From positions 1-64,000 of the forward strand of contig JAVHLK010000007.1 in the NCBI GenBank assembly GCA_031082285.1: a stretch of 64,000 bases of DNA. The letters run 5' to 3'. The notes beneath the pieces are model-generated. The model was not told the DNA's origin. It searched no databases and worked only from the letters and a program-made list of their open reading frames with translations. Positions 56,113-61,486 of the stretch are shown one piece after another. The stretch comes from Desulfomonilaceae bacterium. GTDB lineage: Bacteria > Desulfobacterota > Desulfomonilia > Desulfomonilales > Desulfomonilaceae. Position 1 is the first letter of the stretch. Each line of letters begins with the position of its first letter. The translations under genes and the position numbers were made by a program.

Positions 56113-57813
56113 TTAAAACTCCCCGCTGAGAACCAATTCCATGCCCCATATGGGGTCGATGGACCGATCGGGATTGATGCCCCAATCCGCGGGATTGGTA
56201 CTTCCCAAGACTCCCGGCGGGTCGGCCCAACCGGCAACCCCCTTGTCCACGCACGCGAACTTGTACCAGGCGCCGGGCTGCCAATAGGCGAAGGTCGCAT
56301 TCACGATAAACCCTTCCAAGAGCTGCCAGACGAACCCCGCGTTGACCTCCCACCCGAGATCCGAATCGGGTATGGACGGCGCTCCGTTCGGCCCGAATCC
56401 AAATTCCACTCCGCCGCCGTACTCGCCCGCGGTGAACGGCTCGTCCGAGGGTACGTCGGGCCGTATAGCCCCCCACCCGAATCCGCTTTGGGACACTCGA
56501 TCCGCGCGGAAGAACGTGGCAAAGAGGTTCAGGTTTGCCGCTACGGAATAGTCGATCCGCACCCCGTAGATGGACGCGTCCTCCGCGTACCCGTTGCCGG
56601 TGGTGCTGTTCATGAAGTGACCGAGGCCGTAGCCGTACACCTGGAGATAACTGTACGGTCTGAACAGGCCGGTATTGGAGAAACTGTCCGAATCCAGAAT
56701 CCCGTTCCGGTCGATCTGCCTGCCGTTCCTTCGATCCCCGCCGGAAAACCACGCGTAAAGCAACGAGGTTCTCATTGGACCGGACAGAGCGGCTATCTCG
56801 GTCATCCAGCGCCAATGCTCGACGTAGGTGTCCCGGACATTTACCGCGGGACCGCCGCCGGCGTCTTTCCTTCGGTTTCTGTTCGTCTGCTGCAGCCACG
56901 TCACTTCCGCGTTGAAAAAGAGGGGACCCGGATAATACTTGATGTACGCGCCCCCGTAGGTCTCGTGCCGGTCACGGTACCCATATTCGGTCTGACGGTT
57001 CGCAGGAGTGTCGACAATGCCTTCGCCCCCGCGATGCCGATTATTGGCCACGAAAATCACACCCGTGTCCAACGCGGCGCAACGATACGTGATGTTGGGC
57101 GCGGTCGCATCCCAGAGACGCGTATTGTTCTTGTCGAAATCCGGATTGTAGTAGTCGCCGGAAGAGCCCCTCCTGGACGGATAGAAGGCCAGGCCGAATC
57201 GAAGCGGCCCGAACGGCGCGGTGATCGAGAAGGACTCCGAAGTGCGTGATTCGTCCCCGTTCCAACTCAGACCGGTTCCCCAGACGCTTGGCCTCTTGCC
57301 CAACGACAAGATTCCCCACGGCAGCTGCGCGCTCAGGTTCAGGTAGTTCCAGTACCCCGGCGACATGGCCTGTTGAATTCCCGGAAAACGGTCGTTGAGG
57401 TATTCCGACGCGACGAGATTGCCCGTGGCCGCGTCCGACGGAGGGTTCCACTCGCCGATGTAGTACTGACCCCGGATTCGCAAGGCCGGGTTCATCCTCA
57501 ACTCCATGTCGACCGTCATGTACTGTGTGTTCCACGAACCGTCCGTGCCTGAAACGATGCCGCCCCCCTGCTCACCCAGCCACGCGTTGAGCGGCGCGAA
57601 GGTTCCCGCCGGCGCGAGTGCGATGCCGCTGCCCGCATCAACGTCGTACCGTCCGAAGAAACCGTTTTGACCCAATTGCCCGATCGCCTCATATTCCCAT
57701 GAAAAAGCGCCTTCCATGGAGAACTCCCAAGCCGCGGCGACACCGGACCCGAAAACCAACCAAAGCGCGACCAGCATGACGAGTGCCGGGGACCGTTTCT
57801 TTCTTTCGAACAT
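56113..57813 (-). CDS. Outer-membrane beta-barrel protein, probably porin-like
   Basis: 566 aa. A signal peptide (VMLVALWLVFGSGVAAA) precedes alternating aromatic/polar strands through the full length, and the chain ends WGMELVLSGEF with a C-terminal Phe, the signal for BAM insertion. Length and Trp/Tyr/Gly-rich composition suit a 16-20 strand barrel. No family name was recognised. It is divergent from the DtxR-like regulator and Feo genes, with a promoter candidate overlapping a 20-bp palindrome, so control by metal is possible. Confidence 0.82.
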   Translation of the reverse strand: MFERKKRSPALVMLVALWLVFGSGVAAAWEFSMEGAFSWEYEAIGQLGQNGFFGRYDVDAGSGIALAPAGTFAPLNAWLGEQGGGIVSGTDGSWNTQYMTVDMELRMNPALRIRGQYYIGEWNPPSDAATGNLVASEYLNDRFPGIQQAMSPGYWNYLNLSAQLPWGILSLGKRPSVWGTGLSWNGDESRTSESFSITAPFGPLRFGLAFYPSRRGSSGDYYNPDFDKNNTRLWDATAPNITYRCAALDTGVIFVANNRHRGGEGIVDTPANRQTEYGYRDRHETYGGAYIKYYPGPLFFNAEVTWLQQTNRNRRKDAGGGPAVNVRDTYVEHWRWMTEIAALSGPMRTSLLYAWFSGGDRRNGRQIDRNGILDSDSFSNTGLFRPYSYLQVYGYGLGHFMNSTTGNGYAEDASIYGVRIDYSVAANLNLFATFFRADRVSQSGFGWGAIRPDVPSDEPFTAGEYGGGVEFGFGPNGAPSIPDSDLGWEVNAGFVWQLLEGFIVNATFAYWQPGAWYKFACVDKGVAGWADPPGVLGSTNPADWGINPDRSIDPIWGMELVLSGEF

Positions 57814-57929: not shown

Positions 57930-57959
57930 ATGCTACGTTTGGGTGAGCAAGTTTGTCAA
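57930..57959 (-). promoter_or_regulatory. Sigma70-type promoter of the outer-membrane protein gene
   Basis: Minus strand TTGACA (57959-57954, perfect), an 18-base spacer and TAGCAT (57935-57930). The -35 lies inside the palindrome at 57949-57968. Confidence 0.55.
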
Positions 57960-57968
57960 GACAAACTT
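57949..57968. promoter_or_regulatory. 20-bp inverted repeat over the -35 of the outer-membrane protein promoter
   Basis: AAGTTTGTCAAGACAAACTT: 9-base perfect arms with a 2-base centre. A bound regulator would block the -35 hexamer of the promoter at 57930-57959. Confidence 0.5.
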
Positions 57969-57984: not shown

Positions 57985-58000
57985 GTTAGAAGCATCTAAC
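57985..58000. promoter_or_regulatory. Putative DtxR-like operator, site 1
   Basis: GTTAGA-AGCA-TCTAAC, a perfect 6-base inverted repeat with a 4-base centre. It lies about 50 bp upstream of the regulator's -35 hexamer and matches site 2 at 58079-58094. Confidence 0.6.
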
Positions 58001-58051
58001 ACCCACGAGGACCTCATTGGTGGGCATCTCCGGCGCGCTCAATAAAAAGAC

Positions 58052-58079
58052 TTGACAGACGGCGATAGGCCACTATAAG
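58052..58079 (+). promoter_or_regulatory. Sigma70-type promoter of the DtxR-like regulator and Feo genes
   Basis: TTGACA (58052-58057), a 16-base spacer and TATAAG (58074-58079). The start point would fall near 58086, inside operator site 2. The ATG of the regulator is at 58140. Confidence 0.65.
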
Positions 58080-58094
58080 GTAGACCGGTCTAAC
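58079..58094. promoter_or_regulatory. Putative DtxR-like operator, site 2
   Basis: GGTAGA-CCGG-TCTAAC, same design as site 1 (one mismatch in the left arm). It begins at the last base of the -10 and covers the expected start point, so binding would repress the promoter. Confidence 0.62.
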
Positions 58095-58139: not shown

Positions 58140-58535
58140 ATGCAACACGCGAATGGCTTGACACCCAGCCGGCAATGCTACTTGGTCGAAATCCTGCTTC
58201 TGGAAGCCCGGCAAGGTCGTGCCCGGCAGAGCGAGATCGCGGCAAGGATCGGAGTGAACAGGCCCAGTGTGACCGCGGCGTTGCGGTCCTTAGCCGAAGG
58301 ATCCTTCATCCGGTACGAACCGTACGGCGACGTTGCCCTCACGGACATGGGACGACAGGCAGCCGAGAGGATTATGACTCGCCGCGGAATTATCCGAGAC
58401 TATCTTGTGAAATTTCTCGATATAGACGAAGGCGCTGCAGATGAGGCCGCATGTCGCATGCAACACGCATTGCCCGATATAGTCTTCGATCGGTTGTCTG
58501 CACGGTTGGGGAAACCAGAGAGAGACATCCGGTGA
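58140..58535 (+). CDS. DtxR/MntR-family metal-dependent transcription regulator
   Basis: 131 aa. AGGA lies seven bases before ATG 58140. An N-terminal winged helix-turn-helix (about 8-70: YLVEILLLEARQGRARQSEIAARI, NRPSVTAALRSLAEGSFI, and wing YEPYGDVALTDMGRQAA) is followed by a dimerisation and metal-binding half with RRGIIRDYLVKFLDID and ADEAACRMQHALPDIV (Cys/Met/His ligands as in the DtxR family). It lacks the SH3-like third domain, so MntR-like in size. Its place ahead of the Feo genes, and the paired operators, argue for Fe(II)-responsive control of iron uptake. Confidence 0.9.
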   Translation: MQHANGLTPSRQCYLVEILLLEARQGRARQSEIAARIGVNRPSVTAALRSLAEGSFIRYEPYGDVALTDMGRQAAERIMTRRGIIRDYLVKFLDIDEGAADEAACRMQHALPDIVFDRLSARLGKPERDIR

Positions 58536-58612: not shown

Positions 58613-58909
58613 GTGAACGAAGAAGGACATAGAAATCGAATGGGAAGAACTGGTGAGGCCTTGAGGCTTTCTGATTTCTTGCAGGGCCAAAAGGGTCGGA
58701 TCGTGACGGTTCGAGGCGACGGTGAGTCTCGACGCCGAATGTGCGAAATGGGCTTTACCAGGGGTATGGAAGTGCAGGTGGTGAGAGCCGCTCCGCTCAA
58801 GGATCCGGTGGAATACCTTGTCAAGGGCTACCATGTGAGCCTCCGAAGGGAACAGGCTGCTCTCATCCTGATGGATCGGGCGGATTTGGAGGTACGAAAC
58901 AGTGAGTAA
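58613..58909 (+). CDS. feoA: FeoA-family protein
   Basis: 98 aa from GTG 58613 (GGAGGAG upstream). The SH3-like FeoA core begins at about residue 22: KGRIVTVRGDGESRRRMCEMGF, TRGMEVQVVRAAPLKDPVEYL, VKGYHVSLRREQAALIL. It is a small cytoplasmic partner that supports FeoB. Its end overlaps the GTG start of feoB by eight bases, so translation is coupled. Confidence 0.93.
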   Translation: MNEEGHRNRMGRTGEALRLSDFLQGQKGRIVTVRGDGESRRRMCEMGFTRGMEVQVVRAAPLKDPVEYLVKGYHVSLRREQAALILMDRADLEVRNSE

Positions 58910-60467
58910 GCCCATTACCATAGCTCTAGCCGGAAATCCCAATTCGGGCAAGACAACCATATTCAATGCGCTCACCGGAGCGCGGCAACACGTGGGAAAC
59001 TGGCCCGGGGTAACTGTCGAGAAGAAGGAAGGTTCTACCTCCCATAACGGCAGAGTGGTTCACGTAGTGGATCTTCCGGGAACATATTCGCTGACCGCGC
59101 TTTCCGAGGATGAGATCGTGGCCCGGAATTTCGTCATGAAGGGCGATCCGGACGTGGTCGTGGACGTGGTGGACTCGGCAAACCTCGAGAGGAACCTCTA
59201 TCTCGCGGTTCAATTAATGGAGATGGGCGTCAAGGTGGTGCTTGCTCTGAACATGATCGACGTAGCAAACGGCCGAGGAATGAAAATCGATCATGAGCGG
59301 TTGGCTCGGTTACTCCGTGTGCCCATTGTTACCACAAACGGCAAGAAGGAAAAGGGTATCAAGCAGCTTCTCGAGGTGGCGGTGCAGGAGGCCGACAAAC
59401 CTGCCGGCGATTACTCGGCCTCGCATGTGACGTATGGTCTTGAGGTGGAGGATGAACTCACCAAGATCGAGGAGAAGTTGGAGTCCGGCCCGACTCCCGA
59501 GGACCGCGTACCGACTCGATGGTTGGCCGTGAAACTTCTGGAAGGCGATGCCGAGGTGGAGAAACTCGTCGAGCAACGGTACGGTAACGACGGAGTGCTC
59601 GATCAGGCACGGAAAAGCCGATCCCATATCTCGGAAGTATTCGGCGACGGCGCGGATATCGCCGTGACCGATGGACGATACGGCTTCATTGCGGGCGCGG
59701 TGAAGGAGTCCGTGGTTGTTGACCGACTCGATCGGGTGTATCTGAGCGATAAGATCGACAACGTACTTACTCACCGACTCTTGGGGCCCGTCATTATGCT
59801 GCTCATCCTTTACGGCATCTACCAGTGCACCTTCGTGGGGAGCGAGCCTCTGGTCGGCTACTTCGAGGCCTTCTTCGCGCGGCTGAGCGGATTCGCGGCA
59901 GCGGCCATTCCTGAGGGTCTCATTCAGTCTCTGGTGGTCAGCGGTATGATTGACGGCGTGGGCGGCGTCATGGGTTTCGTGCCTCTGATTGCGTTCATGT
60001 TTTTCGCCATCGCAATACTTGAGGACACCGGGTACATGGCGCGTGTTGCCTTTATGTTGGATCGGGTTCTCAAGTCGTTCGGACTTCACGGTTCCTCGGT
60101 CCTGGCCCTGATGGTTTCAGGCGGGATCGCGGGCGGCTGCGCGGTCCCCGCAGTCATGGCTACCCGAACGTTGAGGGAGCCCAAGGAGCGGCTTGCGACC
60201 ATTCTCGTGGCGCCTCTCATGAATTGCGGCGCCAAGCTCCCCGTGTACGCGTTGCTCATCGCGGCATTCTTCCCCGGCGACAAGGCCTCAATGATGTTTG
60301 CGCTGACGCTCATCTCCTGGGGATTCGTGCTCGTCTCCGCGCGAGTTCTTCGTTCCACTCTGCTGGGGGGGCAGTCCGCGCCGTTCGTACTTGAGATGCC
60401 GCCCTATCGGGTGCCGACCGTCGCTCACGAGAGATCTTTTTCCATGCAAGCCGATCGAAGCCTGTAG
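58902..60467 (+). CDS. feoB: FeoB ferrous-iron transporter, C-terminally truncated
   Basis: 521 aa from GTG 58902, against about 700-800 for FeoB. The G domain is complete (G1 GNPNSGKTT, G2 GVTVEKKEG, G3 DLPGTYSL, G4 LNMID), followed by the FeoB helical domain and the first part of the membrane domain with GGCAVPAVMATR and LLGGQSAPFVLEMPPYRVPT. After PYRVPT the sequence turns to VAHERSFSMQADRSL and stops. Roughly 280 residues, including the second Gate motif, are missing, and no remnant was seen in 60468-60729. It is either a truncated non-functional gene or a regulatory or partner form of the full FeoB at 61483. Confidence 0.9.
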   Translation: MSKPITIALAGNPNSGKTTIFNALTGARQHVGNWPGVTVEKKEGSTSHNGRVVHVVDLPGTYSLTALSEDEIVARNFVMKGDPDVVVDVVDSANLERNLYLAVQLMEMGVKVVLALNMIDVANGRGMKIDHERLARLLRVPIVTTNGKKEKGIKQLLEVAVQEADKPAGDYSASHVTYGLEVEDELTKIEEKLESGPTPEDRVPTRWLAVKLLEGDAEVEKLVEQRYGNDGVLDQARKSRSHISEVFGDGADIAVTDGRYGFIAGAVKESVVVDRLDRVYLSDKIDNVLTHRLLGPVIMLLILYGIYQCTFVGSEPLVGYFEAFFARLSGFAAAAIPEGLIQSLVVSGMIDGVGGVMGFVPLIAFMFFAIAILEDTGYMARVAFMLDRVLKSFGLHGSSVLALMVSGGIAGGCAVPAVMATRTLREPKERLATILVAPLMNCGAKLPVYALLIAAFFPGDKASMMFALTLISWGFVLVSARVLRSTLLGGQSAPFVLEMPPYRVPTVAHERSFSMQADRSL

Positions 60468-60513
60468 GTGAGCCTATTGTGCCGATCAGAAAAAGCTTGA
60501 CAATGATCGAGCC

Positions 60514-60554
60514 CTCGAATAGAGTTCGAGCTGTCTATCAAAAAGAGACAGCTC
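60514..60554 (+). other. Two overlapping hairpins after the short feoB
   Basis: CTCGAA (60514-60519)/TTCGAG (60525-60530) and GAGCTGTCT (60528-60536)/AGACAGCTC (60546-60554) share three bases and exclude each other. No T run follows. They may end or stabilise the feoB mRNA. Confidence 0.35.
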
Positions 60555-60729: not shown

Positions 60730-60948
60730 GTGTGGGATTTGGTCGTCGTGTGTGCAATCGTGTTTGGTGCTCTTGTGATACTGACGCTCCGGCTTGCAAA
60801 CCTTTTCCGAGCCGATCGTGGGGACGGCGCGTGTGGCTGCAGCGGCAATTGCGGGACCTGCGCGTGCAGTATCGGAGAAATCGACGGAGCCGCCGAGGGT
60901 TCCCAGGATACCGCCTCGAGGCCGAAGGCCCGCGTGAACAAAGCGTAA
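60730..60948 (+). CDS. FeoB-associated Cys-rich membrane protein
   Basis: 72 aa from GTG 60730 (GGAGG upstream). One N-terminal helix (WDLVVVCAIVFGALVILTL) is followed by CGCSGNCGTCACSIGE, five cysteines in tight spacing as in the FeoB-associated Cys-rich protein family. It is thought to assist iron transport at the inner face of FeoB. It lies between the short feoB and two feoA genes. Confidence 0.85.
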   Translation: MWDLVVVCAIVFGALVILTLRLANLFRADRGDGACGCSGNCGTCACSIGEIDGAAEGSQDTASRPKARVNKA

Positions 60949-60979: not shown

Positions 60980-61225
60980 ATGTATGAGGACGCGGTGAGG
61001 CCGCTGAACGAGCTAAAACCGGGGCAAAAGGCTTTCGTTGTGGCCCTGATGGGAGGTCGCAGCTTTCAGACACGTCTGATCGACATGGGCCTCAATGTGG
61101 GCAGCGCCGTGGAGCTTATTCGCACAGCCAACGTAAGGGGAGGGGGAGCTCTGGTGGCGGTTGGCGAAACGCGATTGGCCATCGGCAGCGGCATGGCCGG
61201 CAAGATACTGGTGGCCTCCGATTGA
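60980..61225 (+). CDS. feoA: FeoA-family protein (second copy)
   Basis: 81 aa. AAAAGGAG precedes the ATG. FeoA SH3-like core: ELKPGQKAFVVALMGGRSFQ, LIDMGLNVGSAVELI and GGGALVAVGETRLAIGSGMA. It differs in sequence from both other FeoA copies and is followed 36 bp later by the third. Confidence 0.9.
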   Translation: MYEDAVRPLNELKPGQKAFVVALMGGRSFQTRLIDMGLNVGSAVELIRTANVRGGGALVAVGETRLAIGSGMAGKILVASD

Positions 61226-61261
61226 GTCTAGGAGAAACGATCCAAGAGTATGGAGGACATT

Positions 61262-61486
61262 ATGACACTGGACGAATTGTTGCCCGGACAGGCATGTGTG
61301 GTGCGCGACGTTCACCTGGAAGGAGCCGTGCTTCAAAGACTCTTGGACATGGGTTTTGTCGAGGGCGCAAGGATCGAAGTCGTTCGCAACGCACCTCTGC
61401 TCGACCCGATTGACATTCGCATCCGCAACAATCTTATTGCCGTGAGGAGAAGCGAGGCCGGCGGTATCGAAGTGGAGCGGGTATGA
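61262..61486 (+). CDS. feoA: FeoA-family protein (third copy)
   Basis: 74 aa from ATG 61262 (GGAGG five bases upstream; ATG 61250 is in frame but poorly placed). Core: TLDELLPGQACVVRDVHLEG, LLDMGFVEGARIEVVRNAPL and IRIRNNLIAVRRSEA. It overlaps the start of the full-length feoB by four bases (ATGA), so it is the FeoA translated together with that FeoB. Confidence 0.92.
   Translation: MTLDELLPGQACVVRDVHLEGAVLQRLLDMGFVEGARIEVVRNAPLLDPIDIRIRNNLIAVRRSEAGGIEVERV

Follow-up and report, generated by a model that had tools for sequence, protein, structure and literature searches.

Candidate single-dimer DtxR-type operators at the ferrous-iron uptake genes of a Desulfomonilaceae bacterium

Two 16-bp palindromes, here called operators 1 and 2, are located in the 326 bp that separate a minus-strand porin-like gene from a plus-strand DtxR-family gene, and are most likely docking sites for a DtxR-family iron-sensing repressor of ferrous-iron uptake genes. 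Here, "the window" means the whole 64-kb stretch of DNA analyzed. In the reading that we prefer, with a probability of roughly 0.7, these palindromes are single-dimer DtxR-type operators, and the product of the adjacent gene, when loaded with metal, would repress both its own dtxR-feo operon and a second feo operon downstream. That operators of the DtxR type control ferrous-iron uptake appears well supported by the comparison with related genomes, and we infer from sequence the binding itself, the direction of the effect (repression), the identity of the metal, and the DtxR paralogue that would act. Table 1 lists the features of the region, where feoA-feoB and, farther on, feoA-feoA-feoB lie downstream of the dtxR-family gene.

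Table 1. Positions of the genes, predicted promoters, and candidate operators in the window.
Feature	Position	Strand	Basis or remark
Divergent porin-like outer-membrane protein	56113-57813	-	No Pfam match; named from features and family
Porin predicted promoter, TTGACA-N18-TAGCAT	57930-57959	-	Sole scanner-detected promoter of the gap
20-bp perfect palindrome AAGTTTGTCAAGACAAACTT	57949-57968	.	Weak operator-like core GTTTGTCAAGACAAAC at 57951-57966; covers porin -35 box
Operator 1, GTTAGAAGCATCTAAC	57985-58000	.	Single-dimer DtxR-type site with a perfect TTAGA-N4-TCTAA; ranked first by the matrix
dtxR-feoA-feoB promoter, TTGACA (58052-58057), TATAAG (58074-58079), spacer 16	58052-58079	+	Sequence; TTGACA spacing in related loci
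Operator 2, GGTAGACCGGTCTAAC	58079-58094	.	Over -10/start of dtxR-feo promoter; sequence, matrix, promoter-plus-operator search
DtxR-family regulator, 131 aa, two domains, remodelled metal site	58140-58535	+	Pfam; predicted structure
feoA, first operon	58613-58909	+	Pfam search
feoB, first operon, 521 aa, C-terminal third missing relative to ~800-aa relatives	58902-60467	+	Homology
Second feo operon promoter, TTGACA (60497-60502), TAGAGT (60520-60525)	60497-60525	+	Promoter-plus-operator search
Operator 3, GTTCGAGCTGTCTATC	60524-60539	.	Before second feo operon; geometry as operator 2
Small protein resembling FeoB-associated Cys-rich membrane protein	60730-60948	+	Below Pfam cut-off
feoA, second operon	60980-61225	+	Pfam search
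feoA, second operon	61250-61486	+	Pfam search
feoB, second operon, 809 aa	61483-63912	+	Pfam search

Geometry and rarity of the palindromes

A preliminary description of this DNA had reported operators 1 and 2 as 16-mers with shared arms and spacing, and both are present exactly where it placed them; the distance that it gave between their centers, 94 bp, is likewise correct and corresponds to 8.95 turns at 10.5 bp per turn. The arms of operator 1 are perfect; in operator 2, a single pair is broken (G versus A at the second base), and the inner TAGACCGGTCTA is perfect. A pattern search of the whole genome (5,615,179 bases) with GKTAGAN4TCTAMC returned these two sites as the only exact matches. 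A first-order Markov model fitted to the window predicts 0.0018 occurrences of GKTAGAN4TCTAAC per 64 kb and 0.16 on one strand of the genome; it puts the chance of two such sites within 110 bp in the window at ca. 6e-9. Words of this length are short, and many of the phylum-wide matches described below fall inside genes; nevertheless, given the rarity of the pair and the strong enrichment at orthologous genes, a chance origin has a negligible probability and was rejected.

The core TTAGA-N4-TCTAA is equivalent to TTAG-N6-CTAA, the arms of a single-dimer site, which operator 1 matches exactly, whereas operator 2 (TAG-N6-CTAA) has one arm base changed. In the structure of IdeR with DNA, one dimer occupies repeats 1 and 3 of TTAGGTTAGSCTAACCTAA, and a half site of the IdeR box accommodates a single dimer (PMC8464063). 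Since the spacing of each palindrome equals that between IdeR repeats 1 and 3 and a half site can be bound, each resembles a single-dimer DtxR-type site. The 19-bp DtxR/IdeR operator of Corynebacterium, Mycobacterium, and Saccharopolyspora thus shares with the window sites the TTAG/CTAA half sites and the one-dimer spacing. In contrast to it, the window sites have the arms for one dimer only, with A/T where the fifth arm base of the IdeR box is G/C, and the second arm pair at a 5-bp offset, which would complete the 19-bp box, is absent from operators 1 and 2. A Fur box was rejected because the sites are unlike WTGAAAATNATTTTCAW, and an RNA element was rejected as well, there being no Rfam match between positions 57000 and 64000.

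Candidate operators at the feo promoters

The preliminary description had also claimed that operator 2 covers the start point of the regulator's promoter. This holds: the site begins at 58079 and spans the expected start at ca. 58086, a position inferred from sequence. Operator 3, which had been missed before, has the same relation to the second feo operon. A TTGACA lies 27 bp upstream of both operators, the tail CAAAAAGAGA is common to both, and the GTTCGA arm of operator 3 is the common form in Desulfomonilaceae. A third feo operon (feoAB, on contig 66) carries GTTTGACAAGTCTAAC as its site; given that homology detects three feoB genes in the genome, all of its feo operons are covered. When the genome was searched for TTGACA followed by 14 to 28 bases and a relaxed operator, four places were found, namely, the three feo operons and a DUF2325 gene, a count that is descriptive rather than an independent test, as the relaxed pattern was picked after the three feo sites were known. 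The reversed-pattern control gave no match in the whole genome. The fourth place (G000:C286:23424-23460, L304:1501-1537), which precedes the DUF2325 gene, may be an extra regulon member. In most related loci, the TTGACA starts 21 to 32 bp before the operator, and therefore the operator covers the -10 box or the start point.

In order to rank all positions of the 64 kb, we used a matrix of 46 operator sites, none of them from the window and one from the contig-66 feo operon of the source genome. The four highest ranks went, in descending order, to operator 1, operator 2, GTTTGTCAAGACAAAC, and operator 3. Operator 2 scored 13.2, compared with 12.6 to 12.8 for the best shuffled sites, and both GTTTGTCAAGACAAAC and operator 3 scored within or near the range of shuffled sequence. 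The assignment of operators 2 and 3 rests on their placement on promoters.

On this basis, operator 2 would be bound by a DtxR-family dimer in its metal-loaded state, and the adjacent gene is the most likely source of that dimer. The bound dimer would block RNA polymerase at the -10 box and start of its own dtxR-feoA-feoB promoter, and it would bind operator 3 at the same position of the second feo operon promoter. A fall in intracellular ferrous iron would release the dimer, and Feo uptake would rise. Operator 1 would most likely tighten local control or extend it to the porin.

Recurrence in related genomes

The search for the palindrome covered 60 relatives as well as 297 genomes of Thermodesulfobacteriota. 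Among the 76 sites examined with their surroundings, 9 directly precede a dtxR-family gene, in nine other genomes (L055, L074, L108, L109, L119, L131, L143, L148, and L150), where ca. 0.002 would be expected by chance, as estimated from the number of dtxR homologues. Others precede feoA or feoB (L076, L120, L143, and L019), homologues of the window's porin (L073 and, with GGTAGA, L072), or TonB-dependent receptors (L062 and L124); many of the remaining sites, located inside genes, are probably chance matches. Along similar lines, TTAG-N6-CTAA was present within 250 bp upstream of 22 of the 80 dtxR relatives in named genomes (0.45 expected from mononucleotide-shuffled sequence), the carriers including Dehalococcoidia, Clostridia, Spirochaetes, and archaea. 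Within Desulfomonilaceae outside the source genome, feo is preceded by a site with no more than two mismatches at 16 of 19 feoB1-type loci, usually GTTYGA-N4-NCTAAC.

Enrichment of the motif near iron genes was the check that the preliminary description had proposed for itself, and it gave strong enrichment at feo and dtxR genes. This enrichment, together with the placement of operator 2, supports the claim of a DtxR-like operator on the regulator's own promoter, and the palindrome recurs before dtxR-family and feo genes in many Thermodesulfobacteriota, much more often than chance would give. The further claim, autoregulation by the adjacent dtxR gene, is likely; that gene lies behind operator 2, as in autoregulated relatives.

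A regulator with an altered metal site

The regulator combines an N-terminal winged helix-turn-helix domain (Fe_dep_repress) and a metal-binding and dimerization domain (Fe_dep_repr_C), both above the Pfam cut-offs. It has no FeoA domain and no SH3-like domain, which sets it outside the three-domain IdeR/DtxR subgroup. The predicted structure (mean pLDDT of 90) has its best matches among MntR proteins and also matches IdeR. Thus, the protein resembles MntR of B. subtilis and B. halodurans and DR2539, the top structural matches, in its two domains, size, and fold; in contrast to theirs, its gene sits with feo and has no manganese-transport context. The first contig scan found no close relatives, and the best matches of the genome search were 35 to 46% identical.

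At the metal-ligand positions, the residues in relatives are, in order, Asp, Glu, His, Cys, Glu, and His, and those of the window protein are Cys13, Val16, Arg82, Cys105, Gln108, and His109. Substitutions of Asp/Met by Cys13, Glu by Val16, His by Arg82, and Glu by Gln108 remove four of the six usual residues. Compared with MntR, the protein has Cys13 for Asp8, Val16 for Glu11, Arg82 for His77, Cys105 for Glu99, and Gln108 for Glu102. The conserved set of primary and ancillary ligands is therefore incomplete; it retains the Cys that corresponds to Cys102 of DtxR, along with the His that comes next. These positions are unlike those of all compared relatives, of which one set was chosen partly by the usual ligand residues, although homology-based matches show these usual residues too. 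In IdeR, a preference for iron comes with sulfur ligands at the positions of Met10 and Cys102 (PMC10317159). By analogy, iron is the likeliest metal to be sensed by the window regulator, which has sulfur ligands at both positions; with the ancillary histidine and Glu105 gone, however, the sensed metal is less certain.

Two further DtxR-domain proteins are encoded in the genome, a canonical one among them on contig 33 (C33). A different division of labor has an appreciable probability, although below that of our preferred reading: the operators could be bound mainly by the C33 protein, the window protein being a degenerate copy that responds to metal differently or no longer at all and is perhaps constitutive or nonfunctional. 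The C33 protein retains the usual metal ligands that the window protein has largely lost, and its family has GTTYGA-N4-NCTAAC operators before feo, the form shared by operator 3 and the contig-66 feo site. However, the fold of the window protein is intact and confidently predicted, and its gene stands directly behind operator 2. Moreover, its recognition helix (NRPSVT) reads Pro-Ser-Val where regulators with GTTAGA operators have Pro-Thr/Ser-Val; motif-less relatives mostly have SSSVT or MSSVS, and C33 has MSSVS. Somewhat less probable still, and in our opinion rather unlikely, is that the window protein is a rebuilt sensor with a single soft-metal site, responding to a signal different from that of the canonical paralogue and competing with it for the same operators at feo promoters. 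As a side observation, a DtxR C-terminal domain within an open frame of ca. 500 to 620 codons (L040, G000:C240:33063-33266) recurs in several Desulfomonilaceae genomes.

Operator 1, the divergent porin, and looping

Operator 1 is located between the divergent dtxR-feo and porin promoters, on the upstream side of the porin -35 box, and has no recognizable core promoter under it in either direction. Its role may be that of an auxiliary site for dtxR-feo, or it may bring the porin under the same control. We give somewhat less than even odds to the view that operator 1 belongs to the porin altogether, so that there would be two operators for two promoters and no duplicated operator. Porin homologues in genomes G008 and G007 do carry operators on TTGACA promoters (GGTAGA being the form in G007), and in the window, a weak operator-like palindrome spans the porin -35 box. 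Against this, operator 1 is off the porin core promoter, and the closest porin homologues, including a 57%-identical paralogue, lack the site, for which reason we do not regard porin homologues as general regulon members. The G007 operator (L072:1994-2009) lies between the porin homologue and what appears by eye to be a CbiM-like cobalt/nickel transporter cluster, hinting at another metal. The palindrome AAGTTTGTCAAGACAAACTT, whose core had been overlooked in the preliminary description, is unique in the genome and is suggestive only, either of a weak operator or of a site for another regulator. No terminator was found between the divergent genes.

The preliminary description had further suggested looping, and a 94-bp repression loop held by the regulator on operators 1 and 2 would fit two strong sites spaced by about nine helical turns. 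We consider it very unlikely, as a near-integral helical spacing has a ca. 30% chance anyway, a DtxR-type dimer spends both of its DNA-binding domains on one site, and the window regulator has, by sequence and model, no extra domain for the formation of tetramers. The comparison with related loci also argues against it: a second site is found in only 2 of 80 dtxR upstream regions, 15 bp away in both, and no phased pair is conserved, the one comparable case being a weak pair 130 bp apart (L282). Upstream of dtxR or feoA in L195, L202, and L295, there are overlapping pairs of operator-like sites offset by 15 bp, unlike the 94 bp of the window.

The first feoB

Family homologues of the first feoB have ca. 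740 to 890 amino acids, and the match ends at residue 507. We found no C-terminal remnant in the downstream 0.5 kb, and the gene is therefore truncated and not simply frameshifted; the shortening is either a genuine loss or an assembly fault.

Relation to known systems and significance

PgMntR of P. gingivalis is a DtxR-family regulator with FeoA domains (PMC4805248). The window regulator is similar in its family and its tie to FeoA, and many of its relatives carry a fused FeoA domain; in contrast to PgMntR, it lacks one, and the feoA genes are separate. In delta-proteobacteria, Fur boxes have been described before feoAB and porins (Rodionov 2004, PMC545781). The targets are thus the same as in the window, whereas the regulator family and the motif are different. 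In the open-licence literature, we found no description of this operator in Thermodesulfobacteriota nor of a FeoR/DtxR feo regulon.

From the sequence comparison, the operators can solidly be read as a new instance of an established type of switch, the DtxR-type control of ferrous-iron uptake. The analysis provides a testable consensus for such control in Thermodesulfobacteriota, RTTAGA-N4-TCTAAY, with GTTYGA-N4-NCTAAY common in Desulfomonilaceae, and a DtxR-type operator consensus adds to the Fur boxes that the earlier comparative study described in this phylum (PMC545781). It also brings up, as a subject for study, a DtxR protein whose metal site is altered. If the site has indeed been rebuilt, it would consist of two cysteines, a histidine, and a glutamine, with the ancillary site lost, and its signal could be, for instance, Fe(II) only, another soft metal, or the thiol redox state. 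Finally, to judge from the recurrence of the motif, DtxR relatives in distant bacteria and in some archaea seem to make use of single-dimer sites.
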